Shown piece by piece: positions 6,729 to 20,865 of a DNA stretch of 64,000 nt (position 1 is the stretch's first letter; every line of letters begins with the position of its first letter). The stretch spans positions 1 through 64,000 of the forward strand of contig PUQB01000446.1 in the NCBI GenBank assembly GCA_003024785.1, read 5' to 3'. Under the pieces are notes generated by a model. It was given only the letters and a program-made list of their open reading frames with translations, made no database searches and was not told the origin of the DNA. A program made the position numbers and the translations under genes. This stretch comes from Selaginella tamariscina (Eukaryota; Streptophyta; Lycopodiopsida; Selaginellales; Selaginellaceae).

Positions 6729-9700
6729 TTAAGCTTCAGAAAACATACATTCCCTTGCAGTTTTGTTAATCGTGACTTTATCAACGCTTCTTGACATCCA
6801 CCCATATCGAATGGATTTAACATTTATAAAACATGCTGGGTCTTTTTGATTGGGAGACCATGTTTTCTCTAGGCATCCATTATATCTTTCGCTCTCCTTC
6901 TCGTGTCGCCTTTTTTGTGGTTTGAACCATGCAACCTTAACAATACTATTTTTTGTGATTACTTCAGGTGTGTCGATAATTTGACCCATCCAAATAGGCT
7001 GATTATATGACGCATCTGGAGTAATGAGAACCATCATTAGTTTTTGAAGATCCTTGCAGCAATCAAAGTATGCTTTAGGTTTTTGGTTCCTTTGTCCAAC
7101 AAAGTGTGGGGTTTGCACTTCCACATCACTACTGGCTTCTATGTCGTCTGTGCTCAGTGATGTCATTTCAATCTCCTCTCGCCACCTTGTTTTAGGCCAG
7201 AAAGGGTGTTGCAATTCTGTACTTGTGACAGTAGGCCCTTCCAACTCTCGAACAACAGTCTCCCAATAGTTGACCACATGCTTATATAGTTCTGAGTAAC
7301 CAGTTGCCTTATCAGAATTCTTTGGCATCGATTTTTGAACCCATGCCACATATTTTTTGATGCCATCAATAATAACCTCTTGTTCCTTGAGCTGGGCACT
7401 CAATGGAATAGGGTCTGGTTGTCCTTCTGGGAGAAGTGGCTTTCCATCCTCTCCACTTTTGAAGAGCATTAAGCCCTCTTTCGGTAACCACTCCTGCTCT
7501 GATGGCCGTAACTTGTACTGCATAATAGGTATACCATCTCGTATGGAGAAAAAGAATTGCGGCACAAGGTGACCAACTAAAGAATCACTCCCTTCTTTTA
7601 TATACTCCTTGAGAAATTTTTTGAAGTCTGGCACCTCAGTCACAAGCAAAGCACAACTTTTTTTGGAGATGCAATTTTCAAAAAGATTCATCATATGCGG
7701 TAAGGTAAGTGCACTTGTCCTTTTTGTAGAGTTGGAGACCTTGCTGAAGAACGCATCAATATCTTCATGAGTGTGACCAACCATAAGGAAACTGAGCGTG
7801 ATTGTTTCAAACACACCTTTGGCAACAAGCATTGACAAGTATGCTAGCACATATCTAGAAAATAAAAGTAAGTATGAGCTTGAGAAACCCTTAAGTAAAA
7901 TGATTTACCTATTTTTGTTCTCGCCTGCACAATTATCCATCTGTAAAAGCAAATGACGAGGAAGCTTATTTGATGTTGAGGACACATGTACACTATTTGA
8001 GCTAGATCCCTCCACTGAACCTGAACTCTCAACAGGGCCATCTGTTTTTTGTGCAGGTTGCTGACAATGCCTCTCATATTCCCAAGTAGCCTCAAGTGCA
8101 GACGTGTTCATGAGAGCATTATGTAAAGGTTGAAGGTGTTGTTTCTTCACTTTGAGATCACTGATAGGACTTGTCTGTGAGTGGGCTTCAAGGTTTCTGA
8201 AACACATGGCTAACGACCCAATAGTGAAATTGGAGTCGCTAGACCAATGTGGAAGTGAAAAGTGTCCATATGACTCACAACCGTGTCCATGTGTTAGCAC
8301 ACCTGTTAAAGAAATCGGAAGTTTCATGACATTTCCAAGGCACTTTGGTGTTGCAAAGAGCTTTGGAATGCTGGTCTTTGAATGATCCATCTTGTCATGG
8401 ATCAAGCACAGGTACTCTGATGGGCGTGACACAGAAAGCATGCGGTGTGCATAGTACTGAGACCGACAAGTTTGTTGTGCAATCATGTGGGCCTCCATCT
8501 TCCTTTGAATGGTAGTGATCTCCACCAAGGTTTTTGCACAAGCCTCTGCAGCCTTCAATGATGTACAAGTGTCACACTTAGAAAAGCTAGAGTGTTTTGC
8601 AATCTCCACATCCTTAAAATGAGTATTCCATATGTTGTTGAAGGTACCAGTGCAGATTGCTTGGAGCCCCATCAAACTGAGGCACTTGTTCACATGTTCA
8701 CACAGTTTCAATTGAGTGTAGATTGAAGGTAAAACCTTGAGATTTTCCCTGACCCCTGCATTTGTGGTTCGGCATTTGTGAGGCATCCTGTCTGCATTTG
8801 CTTCCACAAAAGCCTTGAGTATCTCTATGGCTGCCATGATGTGAGAGCGGGTTTTGACCAAGCCAGTGTTCCCATGAACTGAGGTTCGCGCTCCATCTAG
8901 CCACTCATCCCTCCGACGGTAGAACGTGGTCTTTGGGATCCCGTATATACTGTACCAAGCTTTGAAGCAGATGGCCACCTTATTAAATACCATGGATGTA
9001 CTCTGATAACCTGTGTCCGAGGCCATTCCATCAATACACCCAGTTAGTGCAGCATATACAAACTCATGCCTTTGCTTTTGGGTGAGCATACGAAAGACAT
9101 GTCTACATTGGGTAATTTCATTCCGGTCTGCCATCTGACAACACTTCTTCTTGCAACAGTCAATCGTGGAAATGCTCGTAACACTTTCGGAAGATGTAGG
9201 ATCCATCTTTACCCTCTTGCTGAAACTTGCAGGGGAAGATCTACAACCCATGAATCGCCTTTTTCTTACAATAGGACCAATGCAAGGAACCTCTTCAAAT
9301 ATGAGTTGTTCTTCCGGGTTGTTATTATTGAAATCCAACCCAGAATATGTTGAACCATCTTGCCGTCTTAATTCAGATGTTCGCCACCTCACGAGGGATC
9401 CAGGATACAATGTGCCATTAGGTGAAACCTCTGTCACAACTACACCCACGAAGTCGGACCCTAGTTTCTCTTCTGACACTGCTTCCATTGGATTTATAGC
9501 TGTGATGATGCCTCTTCCGACTTCAATCTCACGAAGAAAGAGAATCACCTCATCCATTACAGCAGGCAAGCCATCATCTGGTAAACTCGTGCTACTATTT
9601 GTTTGTGACTCTGCATATTTTGTGTCAGCCTTGACTTCATCCAAATTCCACAATACAGGAGAACCCTCCTCAAATTCCATTCCCAGAACCTCAACATGCT

Positions 9701-9857
9701 TGTAAATGGTGTTCACCCATACGTACACACAAGATCCTTGGGAAATATTGTGACATGATGCATTATTATCTCGAACTTCCACAGTTCCAGTGCCAACTAT
9801 CTCGTTGTTCCGAAGAAGACATACTTTATCTCCAGTATTAAACATATTGTCCTGCAC
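6729..9857 (-). CDS. Transposase-like protein with DNCAGENKN and GHTHEDID motifs
   Basis: Open frame of 1024 residues once a 54-bp intron (7855-7908, GT..AG on the minus strand) is removed; the junction reads ENKN-R-YVLAY in phase. The N-terminus (residues 1-160) has two small beta-type modules (TGDKVCLL, VGTGTVEV; later VGRGIITAI). A Cys-rich stretch follows (DCCKKKCCQM, near 235), then an HTH-like stretch (GIPKTTFYRRRDEW), KCDTC, and HDKMDHSKTSIP. The core has DNCAGENKN (near 641-649) and VGHTHEDIDAFFS about 30 residues on, the layout of RNase H-fold transposase-derived families (possibly the DUF7869 type; not checked). It is the longest intact gene in the window, with no stops or slips. 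Palindrome array 1 begins about 140 bp upstream of its ATG. Confidence 0.75.
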
Positions 9858-9999
9858 ATAAATAATTGTATTATTTATGATATCTGTTTATGCAATATTT
9901 TTAAGAAATCTGAATTACGGTTACTTAATAATATGCATATGCAATAATACATAATTATGTTTAGAGATAATATCTCATGTTTGATTAATACAACTGATG

Positions 10000-10914
10000 G
10001 GCGGGATTAATCCCGCCCACGAATCCCTCCGACGAGGAACGGTCGGCGGGATTAATCCCGCCGCCGACTCAACCCCTTCGGAGAGAGTCGGCGGGATTAA
10101 TCCCGCCTTGGACTCCCTCCGACAAGGAAGAGCCGGCGGGATTAATCCCGCCGCCTCTTCCTCCTCGGGGGGAGTCCGGCGGGATTAATCCCGCCGACTC
10201 TCTCCGACGAGGAAGGGAGTCCGGCGGGATTAATCCCGCCGCCGACTCAACCCCTTCGGAGAGAGTCGGCGGGATTAATCCCGCCTTGGACTCCCTCCGA
10301 CAAGGAAGAGCCGGCGGGATTAATCCCGCCGCCTCTTCCTCCTCGGGGGGAGTCCGGCGGGATTAATCCCGCCGACTCTCTCCGACGAGGAAGGGAGTCC
10401 GGCGGGATTAATCCCGCCGACTCATCCTCGCCGGAGAGAGTCGGCGGGATTAATCCCGCCGGACTCCCTTCCTCGTCGGAGGAAGAGGCGGCGGGATTAA
10501 TCCCGCCGGCTCTTCCTTGTCGGAGGGAGTCCAAGGCGGGATTAATCCCGCCCACAATTCTTACGACGGGGAATGGGTGGCGGGATTAAACCCGCACATA
10601 ACTCTCTCCAAAACTATGATTTCAAAGAGATCTCGGGATAAATCCTGTCCCCAAATCTTTAAAACAGGGAAGTGGTGGCGAGATTAATCCCGCCACCCCT
10701 TCCCTGCCTCCTAAAATGGTTGGCGGGATTAATCCCGCCGACAACTCTTTCTAATAAATTCTGGTAACTCTTCATCAGTTGAGAAGGTTATCGACGGGAT
10801 TAATCCCGCCACTCTTTTTCAGTGGCGGAGAAGCATTGCCCGGGAGATGGTGGCGGGATTAATCCCGCCACTTCTTCAAAGAGGCGAAAAAGAAATGGCC
10901 GGATTAATCCCGCC
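10000..10914. repeat. Palindrome array 1: 18-bp perfect palindrome at about 45-bp pitch
   Basis: The core is GGCGGGATTAATCCCGCC, identical to its own reverse complement. Perfect copies start at 10000, 10045, 10090, 10135, 10178, 10223, 10268, 10313, 10356, 10401, 10443, 10490, 10535, 10722 and 10852; variants start near 10579, 10677, 10793 and 10897. Start-to-start spacing in the first 14 is 42-47 bp. A 178-bp higher-order unit is tandemly repeated (10090-10267 and 10268-10445), and the part from about 10419 to 10552 is an inverted copy of earlier units. GC content is far above the flanks. It lies just upstream of the divergent transposase-like gene. Translating it gives GGINPA repeats in every frame that reads through, which is a by-product of the repeat. 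Confidence 0.97.
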
Positions 10915-12517
10915 GCCCCGGTTAACCTAGAATATTAAGTTAAAAGGATATTTAAACGTGATAAATCCCTAACGGAATATATTATAATCCTAATGCATTT
11001 CTAAACCCCTAAATTGTAATTTTAAGAGAGAATGTAAGAGAGTGAATCTTAATAAGTATTTTTAAATTTGTTTATAATACTTACTTGTAAACAGCACTGA
11101 AGGCGCCGTGCTTTCCTATAAAGAATAGCACCCAATTTAATCTCGCTCCTGAGATGATCACTATGAAGAAAAAAGAAGATCTAAAGAGTGAAAAATACAG
11201 AAATGAAGAAACCCTTGCCGGAGAAAGAACCAGATCTGAATTTGAGTGGGAAATTAAATGCATTTTCAAATTTACATGTCAGACCGACAATACATATGTC
11301 AGAAATTCAAATTTTTTAAAAAGAACAGAAAATAAAATTTAAGATGAGTTGACACAAATATCCGACACTCTGACATATATACTCTCCAGTTCCAATGAGT
11401 ATTTTAAAATTGCATTTAATGTTATTCAAGTGATTCAAGCTGTTTAATATTACGAAATTTTAGACTATATTCTACATTCTTAGTATTCAAGTATATTTAT
11501 ATTATATATATATATATAAATATACTTATACAATAAATAAATTGATATATTATTATGTATCATTTAAAATATATTCATAGTCTGTTTATTATTATTATTT
11601 TCTTAATTACTCGAGTATTTAGTTTTCATTTCCTAGTATCAATGGGATATTCTTTAATATTTTATTAATATTTGAAGAATATTCTAATATTAAACCTGAT
11701 TATCATAATTAAATTAGTCTTGTTCTTAATTATTGCAGTAATTATTCTACATTTGTATATATTAATGGGATTTTCTCAATTAATTTGTTATTATTTCAAG
11801 AATATTCATGTGTTAAACCTTATTATCAATATTAAATTAATACACACTATGAACATATTTTAAATTATACATAATAATACATCATTTTATCTAATATATA
11901 GTCATATATAGTTTTAATAATATATATATTAATATCATTTCCTTAATTACTTGAGTAATTAATCTTCTTTATATTAATGGGATATTCTTTATTATTTTCT
12001 TATTATTCCAAGAATATTCCAATATTAAACATGATTATGATAATTAATTTAGTTAATTATTTGAGTACTTAATTTACATTTGTATATATTAATGGGATTT
12101 TCTCAATTAATTTCTTATTATTTCAAGAATATTTCAATGTTAAACCTTTTTATCAATATTAAATTAATATATATTATTAAAACTATATATGGCTATATAT
12201 TAGATAAAATCATATATTATTATGTATAATTTAAAATATGTTCCTAGTGTGTTTATTAATTTTATTTTCTTAATTATTCGATGTTTGTTTTGCACACATA
12301 TATAAACACAATCATAAATTTACACACGCATTACAAGAACTTACAAAAACACATATGCACACACATGCACAACCCTAAACCAAACTGAAGAAATAGGTTG
12401 CTTCTTTATTGAAAACATCATGTTCAACGCATGTATGATATATGTACTCAATCTGTGTGACTGTATGTAACACATTGAATTTACATGTGTAATATTTATA
12501 TTAAGCTTGTTGGGAGC
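10915..12517. other. AT-rich spacer with degenerate long repeats
   Basis: No gene seen. Between about 11640 and 12170 a motif of the type 'AATGGGATATTCTTTAAT ... AATATTAAACCT' recurs four times in two pairs about 330 bp apart, so an older tandem duplication is visible. Otherwise low-complexity AT. Confidence 0.6.
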
Positions 12518-12547
12518 AAACCCTAAACCCTAAACCCTAAACCCTAA
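12518..12547. repeat. Interstitial telomeric repeat, (CCCTAAA)n
   Basis: Four consecutive CCCTAAA units, the plant-type telomere motif read on the C-rich strand. Confidence 0.95.
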
Positions 12548-12654
12548 TATGTAACACAATGAATTTACTCATGTAATATGTATGTATGTCTGTGTGTATA
12601 CACGTGTGCATGTATATATGTGTACTCTGTATGTATATATGTGTACTTTCTGTC

Positions 12655-12975
12655 TTCTCTCATACATACACACCATGCATGATCCATGTTAATATGTACT
12701 GTCTCTCTTCTCTCAAACATACACACCATGCATGATCTATAATATGTACTCGGTCTTCTCTAATATTATGTACTAATATGTATGTATGTCTGTGTGTATA
12801 ATACACACCATGCATGATCCATAATATGTACTGTCTCTCTTCTCTCATATACTATGTATGTATATCTGTGTATAATATGTGTAAGTATATATGTGTACTA
12901 ATATATGCAATGTGTACAAAAATAATTTTTCAACACTCTCTCTTCTCTCATACATACACACCATGCATGATCCAT
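12655..12975. repeat. Tandem repeat around CACACCATGCATGATCC
   Basis: Four copies of a unit containing TCTCTCATACATACACACC followed by ATGCATGATCC, at about 12656, 12708, 12800 and 12945, separated by ATATGTACTGTC-type sequence. The unit sits between the two telomeric tracts. Confidence 0.8.
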
Positions 12976-12985
12976 CCTAAATCCA

Positions 12986-13012
12986 AAACCCTAAACCCTA
13001 AACCCTAAACCC
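12986..13012. repeat. Second interstitial telomeric repeat
   Basis: Three to four CCCTAAA units, same orientation as the tract at 12518. Confidence 0.95.
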
Positions 13013-13384
13013 ATGTAATATGTGTGTATGTCTGTGTGTATACACGTGTGTATGTATATATTATGTGTATTAATATATGCAATGTGTAATGTGTACACAT
13101 GAAACTTTAACACTCTCATGGACACACACATGTTAAATCCCTGCATGATTTATATTTTTGAGGTGTATGTGATACACCCACACACGCACGCGCTAATAAT
13201 ATAATGAAAGAATATTCGTTTAGGGCGAATCTATATTTTATTCTTTTTAGGGTTTAAGTATATTCTCAGAAGGAATATTCTATTAGGGTTGATATATATA
13301 TTTAATTCCTTTAGGGTTTAGGTATATTCTTAGGGTTTCAAGAGGCGGCGGCTGTGAAATCGGCGGCGGCGGCTGTGCACACAG

Positions 13385-13665
13385 GTGAGATCTGTGTGTG
13401 TGTGTGTGTGTATGTATGTATATATGTATAGGAGTGTGCGTATAATTTTATTTATTAGTTTTATCTCTCGCACACACACGCACACTCCTGTGTATGTATA
13501 TGTGTGTGTGGGTGTGTGTTTGTTTATCTGTATGATTTATTTGTTTCGCTCACACACGCATACACACGATATACATATACACATATATATATATATACCT
13601 ATATACATATATACATACATATATTATGTGTACCAGTATCTGTAAATTTTTTTTATTGATCTTGC

Positions 13666-13710
<45 letters not shown>

Positions 13711-13775
13711 TATGTGTACCAGTATCTGTAAATTTTTTTTTATTGATCTATCTCTCCCACACACACGCGCACTGC

Positions 13776-13827
<52 letters not shown>

Positions 13828-14485
13828 CAACATATTATATATATGCTATATATTCATATGGTTATATATCTATATACACACATATATATATGTGTGTGTT
13901 TTCTGTATAATTTTATTTATTTATTAGTTTTATCTCTCGCACACACACGCACACTCCTGTGTATGTATATGTGTGTGTGTGTGTGTGTTTGTTTATCTGT
14001 ATGATTTTATTTGTTTCGCTCACACACGCATACACACAATATACATATACACATATATATACCTATATACATATATACATACATACAACACTAGTTTATA
14101 TATATGCTTATATATTCACAGACTCTCTCTCTTTCTCTATAGATTATATATCTATATACACACATATATATGTGTGTGTTTATCTGTATAATTTTATTTA
14201 TTTATTAGTTTTATCTTTCGCACACACACGCACACTCCTGTGTATATATATATGTGTGTGTGTGTTTGTTTATCTGTATGATTTTATTTGTTTCGCTCAC
14301 ACGCATACACACGATATACATATACACACATATATATACCTATGTACACACATATATTAGGTGTACCAGTACTGTATAATTTATTTATTTATCTATCTCT
14401 TGCACACACACGTACACTCCTATACATACATACATACATATATATACACACACACATATATATATGTGTGTGTTTTTATCTCGCT
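13385..14485. repeat. Compound microsatellite block (TG/CA/TA) with larger tandem units
   Basis: Dense (TG)n, (CA)n and (TA)n tracts embedded in a longer unit (TTTGTTTATCTGTATGAT, then CTCACACACGCATACACAC, then ATACATATACACATATAT) that recurs at about 13510, 13985 and 14265. No coding potential beyond dipeptide runs. It ends directly at the first palindrome of array 2. Confidence 0.9.
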
Positions 14486-14498
14486 AAGCCCCTCGAGC

Positions 14499-15990
14499 GG
14501 CGGGATTAATCCCGCCGCTATATAGTTGGGGCCATGGCGGCGGGATTAATCCCGCCGCCGAGGCCCTTCAGGCATGGGTGAGCGGCGGGATTAATCCCGC
14601 CGCCGAGGCCCTTCACGCAGGCTATGGGCGGCGGGATTAATCCCGCCGCTCTACGACAAACCGAAGAGCGGCGGGATTAATCCCGCCGCCCATAGCCTGC
14701 GTGAGGGGCCTCGGCGGCGGGATTAATCCCGCCGCTCATCCATGCCCTGCGCGGAATGCGGCGGGATTTATCTCGCCGGCAATGGCCTGTGTGAAGGTTC
14801 TAATGGGCGGGATTAATCCCGCCGGATTCCGCGCAGGGCATTTAGGGAATGGGCGGCGGATTAATCCCGCCGCTCTTCGGTTTGTCGTAGAGCGGCGGGA
14901 TTAATCCCGCCGCCCAGGGAATTCACGCAGGACATGAACGGCGGGATTTATCCGGCCCCACGCTCATGCCCTTCGCGGAGGGCGGCGGGATTAATCCCGC
15001 CGTTCATGTCCTGCGTGAATTCCCTGGGCGGCGGGATTAATCCCGCCCCCACCCATCCCTGTTCAAAAATGCCGCAGCCAATATATATGTGTGAGCGCAT
15101 GATTTACGAGAGGGCGGCGGGATTAGCCTCCGAACCTTCATTACCCGGTGGCGATTAATCTCCGAACCTTCATTATCCCATTGGTATGTTGAATCAATCC
15201 CGACTAACTCTGTCTGAGACGGAGAAGGTTTACAAAATACCAATGGAGGGAACCGAGAAGGGTGGTGGGATTAATTTCACCATCCCTTACATGGTGGGCG
15301 GGATTAATCCCGCCGTGTACGCATGCCCTGCGCGGAATCGGGCGGGATTTATCCCGCCGCCATTGGCCTGCCTGAAGGGCCTAGGCGGCGGGATTAATCC
15401 CGCAAGATTTCGCACAGGGCCTGGGAGGCGGGATTCATCCCGCCGAACGCCAATGCCCTGTGCGAAATCGGGCGGGATTTATCCCGCCGCCATTGGCCTG
15501 CCTGAAGTGCCTAGGCGCGGAATTAATCCCGCCCGATTCCGCGCAGGGAATTGGCGTCCGGAGGGATTAATCCCGCCGCATAGGGATCGAGTGAAGGCCC
15601 TGGGCGGCGGGATTAATCCCGCCGAGTCTTCAATGCCTGTTGGAGAAATGAATCTCGCCACCCTTCCCTTTTTCCTCCATTGGTGAGTTGGACCAATCCC
15701 AAACGTTTCTGTCTAAGACGTAGAAGGTTTACAACATACCAATGGAGGGGACTGGGAAGGGTGGCGAGATTCATTTAACCATCCCTTACATGGTGGGCGA
15801 GATTAATCCCGCCTCCTTTCTGGAGTCACTGAAGGGGTGTGAGAAATAAATCCTGCCCAGTTCTCTCTGAGACCGAGAAGGGTGGCAAGATTAATTCCGC
15901 ACTCCCGTTCAAGGCCTCCAGAAAGGTGGCGAGATTAATCCCGCCCACTCTTTCAGGAGGCATTGAAGGGGTGGCGAGATTAATCCCGCC
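14499..15990. repeat. Palindrome array 2: same 18-bp palindrome, 40-48-bp pitch
   Basis: Same core as array 1. Perfect copies start at 14499, 14539, 14584, 14630, 14670, 14716, 14806, 14894, 14984, 15030, 15297 and 15606. One-to-three-base variants start near 14760, 14854, 14940, 15341, 15387, 15427, 15471, 15514, 15561, 15796, 15928 and 15973. Spacers differ from array 1 but recur here, often inverted: the spacer GCCTGCGTGAGGGGCC is the near reverse complement of one upstream, giving nested foldbacks centred near 14658. Between 15050 and 15290, and again 15650-15790, a unit with GAGAAGGTTTACAA and ATACCAATGGAGGG is repeated and the core is eroded. The array ends about 340 bp before the first exon of the ParB/methyltransferase-like gene. 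Confidence 0.97.
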
Positions 15991-16102
15991 GCACCTTCCA
16001 TGTGAATATATATGTGTATTAGTATATATAAGTTGCATATCTCATTTTATTTACTTTTATCATCTTATCATAATATTTCGAGTAAAAGCTAGGAATCTAT
16101 GT

Positions 16103-16192
16103 AAAACTGTCCAGAGCTCACATTTGTGGTGGTTCTAAAACGAAATGTTATCTTTCTTTTGCACTAACACAAATGTGAGCTTCGGACAGTTA
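16103..16192. other. 90-bp foldback (miRNA-like hairpin or tiny MITE)
   Basis: The left arm 16103-16127 contains AGCTCACATTTGTG and the right arm 16168-16192 contains CACAAATGTGAGCT. The 25-bp arms pair with about three mismatches around a loop of about 40 nt. Size and arm length suit a plant miRNA precursor, but also a short inverted-repeat element. No target or expression can be judged here. Confidence 0.6.
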
Positions 16193-16332
16193 ATTACGTC
16201 TACTTCTCTCTGTGTATTATTTTTGTATATTCGGTTTATACAAGTGTGTGTGCGTTTTTATATAATTTATATTTATAGTGTATTATTTTGCAGAAGGACG
16301 ATTTGATCAAACAAGGAGATCGAGTCATTAGT

Positions 16333-19300
16333 ATGGAGTCGTCGTCAAATTCTGGGTAAGAATTAAAATAAAATCTGTTATACTCGGATACTTGAACTAA
16401 TCATTTTTGTATTCAGATGTGGAATTGAAGTGACATTAAAGACAAGAGCAGGAGAAGAGATGGGCAGGGGGATTTTGGAATCAACTTGGCCATATTTTAA
16501 GATAAATGGGAAGCGCATTGGAGCAACCATGGTTGCTGTCAAATTAACCTCTGTCACATCTCATGGACAAGAAAACAATGGAAAGTTGATTCGCTAGTCA
16601 AGCACCCGAAAGCAGGCTGCGAACCCAGATTGGACGATGCTCGACAGATATGCCTTGTTCCATCCAATGTCACGTTCTCGGATCCAGAGGTCGTCAGTTA
16701 CAACATTAATCTCGGTGGTTTTGTCGACTTGTGGATAATGATGTTCACGTGTTCACTAATGATGTTGACCTTGGAGTTCTTCTTCAACTCAACGAAAGCC
16801 CATCTATGGAGGGGATCCATCTGGATGTCTACTTCGAAGATCTTCAGACTCATCGAGTAGGTGTATTGTCAGGAGATATTGTTTCACAATACAGAGCAAG
16901 TGGAGCAATCTTCCCTCTTGACATTGAAGAAGAACACAGCGACATCATAAGGGAGATTGAGAAGGTGGCTCGGTCTCAGGTTCTCTACAGATCACGTTCA
17001 ATTTGCTTAGGAAGCTTCGGGAGCTGGAGGAGTGTGCCGAGAACACTAGAACAGCTGCAGTCGGGGATCACACATGTTGATTCGGATCGCAAAAGAAAAT
17101 CATCAATCGTTTTGTCAGCTGCACCTGTGGCATCTCATGCTGCAATAAGTCACAAGGAAATGATGTTGGATGATAAGATTTATCCTTGTAGGGTTAAATA
17201 TTGCAGCGTCAACCCAAACTTCAATTACAGGCCACTCAACCAGGAACGTGTAGCTGAGCTCATGGAGAAGATGAAGGACGACAATTCTTATACCGTTCCA
17301 CATAATGCTGTTTTGTGTCCATACTATGAAAGAAGGAAGGGTGCTGACAAAGTCTGGATCACAACACCAGAACAACTCATGAAGATTCAGACGGAGAATA
17401 AAAGATCTATCAAGTACTACATCATTAGTGGCCAGCACACAATAACGGCAGCCCAACGACTTCTCGATGAACACAACAAAGGAACGATGGCAACAAAACT
17501 TTCCGAGCATACCCGTGAGAAGCTGACAAAAAGATCGGCGTTTTTAGCTAAGCCAATCTCACAATCGAGCAGTACCATAAGTTATCGGCGGAATGGGACG
17601 CTGCCGACACCAACCACTACAACAGCAAAATATGGGAGAAGTTTAAACACATGCGAGCCGTGTGGGAATCTCTTCAGCGACCACAAAGAGCTACCGCAGG
17701 AATACACAATCTGCGGAATACCGGGTAAGCAAATTGTTTGGGCGGGATTTATCTCGCCGGTATATTAATCTGTCTTTTTCCTCAGAGAGTTGAAGAAATT
17801 GCAGCAGTTGATTTTGCCCAGGTGGGCGGGAAGGAAACATCATTTCTGATGATGTTGATTTCTTGCCCCGAAGATAGGATCTTTGCCAAATGGTTGGGGA
17901 TTATGGAATCCTTTTCAAAAGGAACACTGAAGAAGAAGCAGACAAGTGAAGGGGAGCCCTCAGAAAAGTCTGCAAAGAAACCCAGTAAGACGCCGAAGGC
18001 TAAGTCTGTTCAATCTACAAAGGATGTAGACAACGATTTCAAGCTCACATGGTTGAAGCCTTTAAATGGAACAACGATGGAGGAGATGGAAGTCTTGGCT
18101 GATTTGGTGATCGATGGCAAACTACAAATTAATAACAGCAGCCCAACCTCTCCTTTTCATCTCAAGGCAATGGAGTTGAAGACGGTCAGGCATTTCAAGG
18201 AGTGGTTGGGAATACACTGCCACAAACTGGGTTGGACCTCGACTTCAACATATGAAGAGGTTAGCAAATATTTGCATGTGACGAACGATGATATGCTTGT
18301 CGAATGGGTGAACCAATCGGAAGATCTAGGCAAAATCTATTGCACGCCAACGCCAAAAAGGAGAACATTGGGATGACGCCTTCTCTTATGGCAGTCCTTC
18401 AGCAGCAGAGACCGAATTGAACCTTATAAAGGAGGATGCTACGAATCACGACAAGCCCTACAGATGTTTGTTGTTAGATTCGGAGACTTTATGGGGTAAC
18501 ATCACTGCTTGTAGGAAACCGTTTCAATTGTTCGTGATGGATCGGCGGGTGTCAAAAAATCTTTCGACAGATAGGGCACTAGAGGATCTGGTGGAGAAAC
18601 TTAGCCGTGCAAGCATATACATAGAAGGTATTTATTATTGAATTCATGCTTGCGCTCTTCACTGATACCTACTTTTTCAGGTATTTATTTCTTGATTCTT
18701 GCTCATGTCACCGATACTTTTGCCTTCGCCTTCGCCAAGAAGAATAGACATCGTTGGACAGGATTTTATATGAACGATGCTAATCCCAAGTGCATTGATA
18801 CTGTTGTTCACTTGGTTGTTAGGAATGCGCCAAACAATTTCAAGCTTCCAAATGACTGGCCAGGCATCTGTTTGCACTCCAACGGCCCTGAACCTCCATC
18901 CGATACACCGATAGGTATGAGTGACGTATTCGGCAATGTACGTTATCCAAACATTACAAGTCAAGCGGCACGGAGCATCGTCAACTTGATCAGGGGTCCT
19001 CACAGTGATGCGTGGGTTTTTGACTACTGCACTAGGGGGTCCGTCTTGAAGGAGTGTTACCTTCGGCATACATGTGTGTTTGCCGTTGAGAAGGATAAGA
19101 CCATGGTTGAGGACCTGAACAAGTGGATAGATTGGGTCTCAACTGAGTACCCCAACGATTCCATAAAGGCGTATTTGAGAAAGTTCCCTCCAGATAAGTG
19201 CGATAGCTCTGAAGGTGAATCTGGTTCAATCTCGGAGTCTGAGAACGAACATCAATCAGATATTAGACCGGAAGTTATCTCGAGGAGTACAGAACATTCG

Positions 19301-19426
19301 CACACTCCAGGACCCATGGAAACATCAATAGAAGATGCAGAAGATCTTGAACCATCTCACAAGCGGCTTAGACCTTCTTCGCCTCATTCAGAAGGTAATA
19401 GCGAAGAAGAATTGATAATGAATTGA
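16333..19426 (+). CDS. ParB/sulfiredoxin-like plus methyltransferase-like protein, frameshifted
   Basis: Start chosen at MESSSNSGCGIEV; it could lie in an earlier exon. Introns with GT..AG: 16356-16416, 17725-17787, 18627-18680. Modules in order: (1) N-terminal beta-type module (GRGILESTWPYF, INGKRIGATMV), resembling the N-terminus of the transposase-like gene; (2) NYRPLNQERVAELMEKMKDD ... YYIISGQHTITAAQRLL (17220-17460), which matches the ParB/Srx fold pattern of 'choose residues, then G-x-H-x-x-x-A-A'; (3) a Lys-rich linker (KKPSKTPKAKS); (4) FQLFVMDRRV where beta-class DNA methylases have DPPY; (5) WVFDYCTRGSVLKECYLRHT followed by CVFAVEKDK where they have the SAM-binding DPFxGSG and E-D motif; (6) an acidic tail ending at 19426. 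Frame slips near 16596, 16733, 17540 and 18370. Both methylase motifs are degenerate, so catalysis is doubtful. Confidence 0.6.
17741..17758. repeat. Solitary copy of the 18-bp palindrome inside an intron
   Basis: GGCGGGATTTATCTCGCC differs from the array core at two positions. It lies in intron 17725-17787 of the ParB/methyltransferase-like gene, far from either array. Confidence 0.9.
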
Positions 19427-19882: not shown

Positions 19883-20865
19883 GTGGCAACGGATAAATGT
19901 GAAAGGGAGCAAACAAGTGATTTGCAAAGTATTCAAGAGGCAACGCTATCTCACGTTACTCATGGCCATATTGTGTTGTTGGATGTCAATGGTGTTCTGC
20001 TTCATCGACAAAGGCCCCAGGATAGAAAAACAGAAATCAAACAAGGAGATTTCATTCCTTGTCATGGTAAATTTCGATATGATATTATTTTTCGTCCAGG
20101 GTTGGATCGTCTCTTTCAAAAGCTTAAGGAGATGGGTGCGCTTGTGGGGATTTGGTCATGCATGCAGATTCATAACTTAACACCGCTGTTGAGTTTACTT
20201 AAGAAACATTGTAGTGTTGCAGAAGAGGTGATTCGTAAAGATTGGATTTTTGACCAGCGAATGTGTTATAAACCTCTCGAATTTCACAATATAAGAAAGG
20301 AAAGCAAGCCATACTTCTTCAAGAATGAAAGAATAATTGGGACTCATGGGAGATCAGTCGCTTAAGGATAACGAAGAAACATATCTTAGTAGTAGACGAC
20401 TCTCCTCAGAAGGCTATGCTCAACCAAAACATTGCTTGTATTCATCCAATCACTTTCGATCCATATTCTGATATCGATATCATGGATGAGCTAGTGAACT
20501 ACTTGGATACGTGCCTCAGAAAGAAGAATCTCGAAAATTTTTGTGAGCAGTATCCACCGTATCATACATTTCCTGAAGCTTTTCTTTCTCGTGATATTGA
20601 ATTTTATAAAATGAAGGATAGCAACCGGGCGCTTTATAATATTATTCTTAAGGAACGTCAGTTTTTAGATGAGCCTTTATGCAGACCTTCTCTTATCACA
20701 TCTTATGTATTAACAAGGATGGCAACTCCCAATTGCATTCGTGAGAGTGTTAAGTGGTGGCAACAACATCAAGATATTGACCAAAATGATTTGATTAATC
20801 CGGAGAGTGATGATTTAGACAAAATGAAAAGATTTCTTTGTATGATAGAAAGAAAGTATTTATAA
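19883..20865 (+). CDS. FCP1/NLI-interacting factor-like HAD protein
   Basis: HAD-superfamily protein of the FCP1/SCP type. Motif I is LLDVNGVLL; the second Asp of the usual DxD is Asn, a variant common in this plant subgroup that questions phosphatase activity. Then FRPGLDRLFQKLKEMG and the motif II region GIWSCM. Motif III/IV is KHILVVDDSP near 20380. The C-terminal half reads FPEAFLSRDIEFY to the stop at 20865. The frame changes once near 20345 (ERIIG to WDSWEIS), a single indel. Upstream, 19502-19558 and 19609-19652 have good splice borders and join in phase (HTLTR-CNEIIENMDF), so they may be 5' exons of this gene or 3' exons of the preceding one. Confidence 0.75.

Follow-up and report, generated by a model that had tools for sequence, protein, structure and literature searches.

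What do two arrays of one short palindrome represent between two divergent genes of Selaginella tamariscina, and how did they grow? The arrays lie in a stretch of 64,000 nucleotides (GenBank assembly GCA_003024785.1, contig PUQB01000446.1, positions 1 to 64,000 of the forward strand), which is called the window here and to which all coordinates refer. We find that they are real and far from chance; our leading reading is a docking array of a mobile element, enlarged through duplication and inversion.

The repeated word, or core, is the 18-mer GGCGGGATTAATCCCGCC, a palindrome. With up to 3 mismatches it was found 44 times across the window, against a mean of 0.01 and a largest count of 1 in 100 shuffles, and 27 of the array copies are exact. 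Array 1 (10000-10914) holds 19 copies, 15 of them exact, and array 2 (14499-15990) holds 24, 12 of them exact; outside both arrays there is a single copy with 2 mismatches at 17741-17758. The counts agree with a preliminary description of this DNA, which had given about 19 and about 24 copies of one 18-bp palindrome, and chance is refuted for the arrays as a whole. Both arrays contain 58% GC, compared with 38% in the window. The arrays and the interval between them are divided as follows.

10000..10552, no strand: array 1, proximal part; steps of 42-47 bp between 13 exact cores, spacers akin to one another and present both ways round, period of 178 bp
10553..10914, no strand: array 1, distal part; irregular steps, 6 cores with at most 3 mismatches and one with 5 (10632)
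10915..14498, no strand: AT-rich DNA separating the arrays; GC content of 28%, with two short CCCTAAA tracts, microsatellites and a tandem repeat of 327 bp
14499..15047, no strand: array 2, proximal part; 13 cores, few spacer families in both orientations, nested hairpins
15048..15990, no strand: array 2, distal part; degenerate cores and 11 with at most 3 mismatches, 8 of which are spaced fairly regularly (15297-15623)

The CCCTAAA tracts, which are interstitial and of telomere type, lie at 12518-12547 and 12976-13012.

The preliminary description had also given the cores a fixed pitch of about 45 bp. This was true of the well-kept parts, where steps are 40 and 42-48 bp and spacers 22 and 24-30 bp, but not of the irregular stretches (10553-10914 and most of 15048-15990, with 15297-15623 excepted), where steps range from 33 to 121 bp, several cores carry 4-6 mismatches and the order of the array decays. 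The pitch follows the spacer families, of 22, 26, 27 and 28 bp, and is thus explained by their duplication. Array 1 has in addition a higher-order period of 178 bp (3.1 copies, 91% matches) and its spacers 2-5 equal spacers 6-9, so that its copies are not independent of one another.

The spacers recur in both orientations, an observation that adds to the preliminary description, which did not report it. When 42 spacers were compared all against all (two intervals longer than 60 bp being omitted) and pairs above the 99.9% threshold of shuffled sequence were kept, 120 homologous pairs were obtained, 57 direct and 63 inverted, with the repeated units of array 1 counted several times among them. 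Exact reverse complements are formed by the spacers at 10108 and 10286 with that at 10508 (27/27), by 14912 with 15002 (28/28) and by 14648 with 14872 (22/22), and a near-exact one by 14602 with 14688 (27/28). As judged from the sequence, the segments between cores appear to have been duplicated and inverted with the palindrome serving as the joint. Because the spacers are present in inverted copies, the arrays are predicted to fold into nested hairpins, with z scores of -29.0 for array 1 as DNA (20 shuffles) and -28.2 for 14499-15047 as RNA (100 shuffles). An alternation of spacer orientation was tested in the arrays and was not kept; nor was a link between the order and the orientation of spacers, which gave p 0.0004 with the duplicated array-1 units and p 0.37 once these were removed.

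Cores and spacers have changed at different rates, measured outside the irregular stretches. In minimum spanning trees, the first 13 cores of array 1 required 0 edits against 34 for their spacers, and the 21 cores of array 2 required 10 edits (13 when counted from the consensus) against 98 for the spacers over 17 of 18 edges, or 109 over all 18. Cores are slower than spacers by about 8-fold or more on this measure, the Poisson significance of which is overstated, since edits are treated as independent and identical cores have free edges among them. In array 1, the spacers next to thirteen perfect cores show 15% substitutions, and indels make up 12.5% of their aligned columns. Overall the core is clearly conserved, and among the first 13 cores of array 1 without exception. 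Its source could be either selection or conversion, as conversion at palindromic joints could keep cores alike without selection.

To see what is conserved in the core, the changes within it were tabulated. Across 45 core copies (a count that omits 14854, with an apparent one-base deletion, the solo copy at 17741, and the loosest copies, at 15116, 15187, 15264, 15642 and 15763) there are 34 changes, of which the four CpG positions account for 7 and the remaining fourteen for 27, so that no CpG excess is seen. Some changes are shared by descent, such as G to A at position 5, which occurs six times. The core CpGs are retained in 41 and 42 of the 45 copies, and the observed/expected CpG ratio is 0.89-1.18 for the arrays as wholes, 0.62-0.74 for the spacers of well-kept runs and 0.58, 0.69 and 0.60 for the rest of the window, spacers being about as CpG-poor as the latter. 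No second change restoring full symmetry was found in 18 variant cores, which indicates that the sequence is kept and not the pairing. Core variants of array 2 partly track the spacer type: two of the four TTTATC cores precede GCCATTGGCC spacers and a third precedes GGCAATGGCC. Taken together, conservation, CpG content and the lack of compensatory changes fit recognition of the sequence by a protein more readily than a simple hairpin.

The arrays adjoin the 5' ends of two divergent genes, A and B, whose starts lie about 155 bp from array 1 and about 300 bp from array 2, respectively.

6729..9857, minus strand: gene A, encoding a DUF7869 protein; 54-bp intron (by eye) between two long open exons, with the first ATG in frame at about 9845
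16294..19426, plus strand: gene B; start placed by eye at about 16294, open in pieces that fall in several frames (a broken gene or errors in the sequence)
17741..17758, no strand: solo core GGCGGGATTTATCTCGCC, within a putative 61-bp intron of gene B (17725-17785, by eye)

A protein search returned eight relatives of gene A with E <= 1e-5; in an alignment, gene A and these eight show 26-38% identity to the first relative. One (P0002) of the five relatives scanned matched PF03017 (TNP1/EN/SPM) with E 6.6e-4 and 19.9 bits, below the cut-off of 21. The alignment of the family contains the motifs HDKMD, QMDN and GHTHEDID, which may resemble a DDE triad. The predicted model of one relative is strand-rich in its first 200 residues, and its top structural hits are Spindlin and PWWP barrels. 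No relative of gene A was confirmed in viral contigs, and a literature search under the name DUF7869 or its accession found nothing.

The first coding piece of gene B resembles the N-terminal domain of two gene A relatives (BLASTP E 0.001 and 4e-5 in single comparisons with relatives picked by eye, these two being the only ones compared), and it aligned to the gene A family profile with an hhalign probability of 46% and E 2e-4 (one comparison). A ParB-like reading of gene B, suggested by the motif YYIISGQHTITAAQ seen by eye, was dropped: there was no support from Pfam, NCBIfam or PDB, and the model was unusable (predicted local distance difference test score, pLDDT, of 34). The 20 bp around the solo core (17741-17760) are identical to the array-2 copy at 14760-14779. 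The better-kept end of array 1 adjoins the apparently intact gene A and the more decayed end of array 2 adjoins the broken gene B, which, with two cases, is a remark only.

How should these arrays be explained? The reading that we put first, although we would give it slightly less than an even chance, is that a transposon-type locus uses them in cis as docking arrays. One dyad-symmetric word, repeated many times a short way upstream of two divergent genes, would be occupied cooperatively by a dimeric protein that such an element encodes; TnpA occupies the subterminal repeats of Spm in this manner, and VANC the motif arrays of VANDAL elements. The arrays would have expanded by tandem duplication and by inversion of entire spacer segments, each bounded by cores at its two ends, and each inversion would leave every site intact because the core is palindromic. 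Gene A would be the transposase, and binding of the cores by a protein may regulate the genes or mark the element. In favour of docking are the slower change of cores than of spacers, the retained core CpGs, the lack of compensatory changes, the place of the arrays beside both gene starts with a solo core inside gene B, the DUF7869 identity of gene A together with the PF03017 match of one relative below its cut-off, the resemblance of the first coding piece of gene B to the relatives of gene A, and comparable arrays in print (PMC2829016, PMC2613891, PMC5735166). If the DUF7869 protein or its sister does bind the word, that family would be given a function.

Several results weigh against docking. 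At the borders of the arrays and around the two genes, no convincing terminal inverted repeat accompanied by a target duplication was seen (four region pairs, top 8 matches each): the best inverted end matches are 14-15 bp long, and one of them (6443/16269; 15 bp, AT-rich) has a 3-bp flanking match while the others have none, nor does 9850-10000 have a flanking match with 15990-16340. Gene A itself gave no PF03017 match in the Pfam scan, which showed DUF7869 alone. A transposase reading of DUF7869 was not confirmed: the model of one relative (pLDDT 54) had no PDB match at E <= 0.001. Gene B has broken frames and yielded no relatives in two protein searches. Symmetry beyond the 18 bp is not significant in either array, with at best 16 of 200 shuffles reaching the value of array 1. 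Finally, in the six array-2 pairs with the most similar spacers, the spacers differ by 3.2% (a value lowered by selecting the pairs for spacer likeness) and the flanking cores by 7.9%, and across the classes of spacer divergence (6, 8 and 35 pairs) the array-2 cores differ by 6-8% throughout. The preliminary description had held that cores are better conserved than spacers, unlike an ordinary minisatellite, in which the whole unit decays together, and had taken a dimeric DNA-binding protein at a dyad-symmetric site as the natural reading. This reading is supported in part. The spanning trees bear out the better conservation overall, and the spacers in both orientations also set the arrays apart from an ordinary minisatellite, but the closest array-2 units go against a slower core.

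The core differences in array 2 speak for a neutral palindromic minisatellite, the strongest rival and a sizeable possibility, if a somewhat doubtful one. The core would here be a hot spot for hairpins or recombination, spacers would be copied and flipped by template switching and unequal exchange, and gene conversion would even out the cores with no protein reading them. The exact reverse-complement spacers, the hairpin z scores, the 178-bp period and the near-random orientation of the spacers, without a link to their order once duplicated units are removed, all suit this explanation. It accounts poorly for thirteen perfect cores beside the diverged spacers of array 1, for array-2 core variants that go partly with spacer type, contrary to free conversion, and for arrays adjoining both gene starts; we favour the docking array over it. 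A more active role of the core as joint is quite improbable: a recombinase or transposase of the locus might flip and copy spacer segments between identical symmetric sites, or hairpin replication might be guided by the core, giving a shufflon-like array in a plant nucleus, and here too the sites would survive every inversion because they are symmetric. The long nested hairpins and the divergent genes on both sides would also fit a host locus, either a cluster of transcription factor sites or a hairpin transcript processed into small RNAs for the silencing of related sequence. Such a locus is unlikely, given that 9000-18000 has no Rfam match at gathering cut-offs, that the cores lack compensatory changes and that 43 sites far exceed the usual promoter cluster. 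An assembly duplication could have repeated spacers 2-5 of array 1 unchanged as 6-9, and sequence error could have broken the frames of gene B, but with the observed excess of matches over expectation and graded divergence between the units, chance or artefact is hardly credible as an explanation.

The word was also sought elsewhere. Neither GGCGGGATTAATCCCGCC nor three shorter forms of it gave a match in a literature search, and among the titles and opening parts of abstracts listed by three broader searches there was no plant array in which perfect palindromes are separated by inverted spacers, which is no proof of absence. Viral contigs gave one stretch with a single 18-mer site and none with paired sites, and plasmids gave no match for array 1, the one array searched. 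In prokaryote genomes, 49 stretches were found, of which 48 hold one exact copy and one (L012) holds two, and they were rejected as relatives; at 3 mismatches, the most copies in any of them is four (L011, 8 kb). The 18-mer lies in a shared repeat, mostly near the end of the stretch, in nine loci of a Prevotellaceae bin and in three of a Bacteroidales bin. GTAG or CTAC flanks several of the other bacterial copies, which in this resemble repetitive extragenic palindromic (REP) sequences.

Elsewhere in the window, a large inverted duplication spans 23198-61858, its arms of 23.2-36 kb pairing with 49-61.9 kb and being mostly 97-100% complementary among the 25 longest matches; it contains pentatricopeptide repeat (PPR) open reading frames (ORFs), and parts of 33.3-36.3 kb recur directly at 45.1-48.2 kb. 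An ORF at 4686-5303 matches terpene synthase family 2 (PF19086, E 8.7e-9), a kind known from non-seed plants. This match, the PPR ORFs and the CCCTAAA tracts all agree with a plant source of the DNA. Directly downstream of gene B lies an ORF for a NIF-type phosphatase (PF03031; 19883-20365), and the next ORF, at 20416-20865, had no family match.

We finally compared the locus with known repeat systems, using the available parts of the published descriptions. The arrays resemble Sirevirus RM boxes, CACTA subterminal repeats, VANC motifs and Galileo repeats most, and correspond to the full definition of none. Repeated motif (RM) boxes, borne in the LTRs or linkers of the Ty1/copia-type Sirevirus retrotransposons, are palindromic and mostly CGG-CCG based, with 8-32 copies per element in non-coding DNA near genes, and their clusters form CpG islands upstream of the promoter region (PMC2829016). 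The present word is likewise palindromic, has at least 8 copies (19 and 24) and carries CGG at positions 3-5 and CCG at 14-16. However, there are two arrays with inverted spacer copies here, and the 18-mer equals none of the 13 words published (PMC2829016). No pair resembling long terminal repeats surrounds the arrays among 20 of at least 60 repeat families, and no ORF longer than 166 aa lies within 10000-15990, a whole-window search for retroelement domains not having been made.

The soybean CACTA (En/Spm) element Tgmt* has 4 and 24 subterminal repeats of a motif of up to 17 bp, direct and inverted and capable of forming stem-loops, which are taken as TnpA-type sites, although the paper states that this remains to be determined (PMC2613891). 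As described there, it shares with the present locus two unequal arrays, both orientations, stem-loop potential, and GC-rich and AT-rich parts. It differs in that the present arrays lie between two genes and their motif is itself palindromic, and no CACTA-type ends or target duplication were seen in the four region pairs and array flanks, the limits of that scan.

VANC motifs of VANDAL elements are short and have built up in tandem, both in introns and upstream of the genes that the element itself carries (PMC5735166), and the present arrays similarly adjoin two gene starts, with a solitary core inside a putative intron. YAGTATTAY, the VANC21 motif, is non-palindromic and in one orientation (PMC5735166), whereas the present motif is palindromic with spacers in both orientations; no VANC-type domain, or any Pfam family above cut-off, was found on the scanned pieces of the broken gene B. 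Foldback-like Galileo elements have long, internally repetitive inverted repeats with three THAP (transposase) sites (PMC3688188). The present arrays are also internally repetitive with several sites, but they form no matched inverted pair: among 25 alignments listed, in both orientations, one is an inverted match of 86% over 63 bp between 10677-10739 (inner part of array 1) and 15928-15990 (outer end of array 2), and the others reach 66-72%. Terminal inverted repeats built of tandem repeats, with a target duplication, as in foldback elements, were not found, and the array flanks show no duplication. According to these papers, arrays of palindromic or inverted words are known in plant retrotransposons and CACTA elements, where their reader is mostly not shown. 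Beside them, the S. tamariscina locus separates core from spacer unusually clearly and displays inversion as a mode of array growth.

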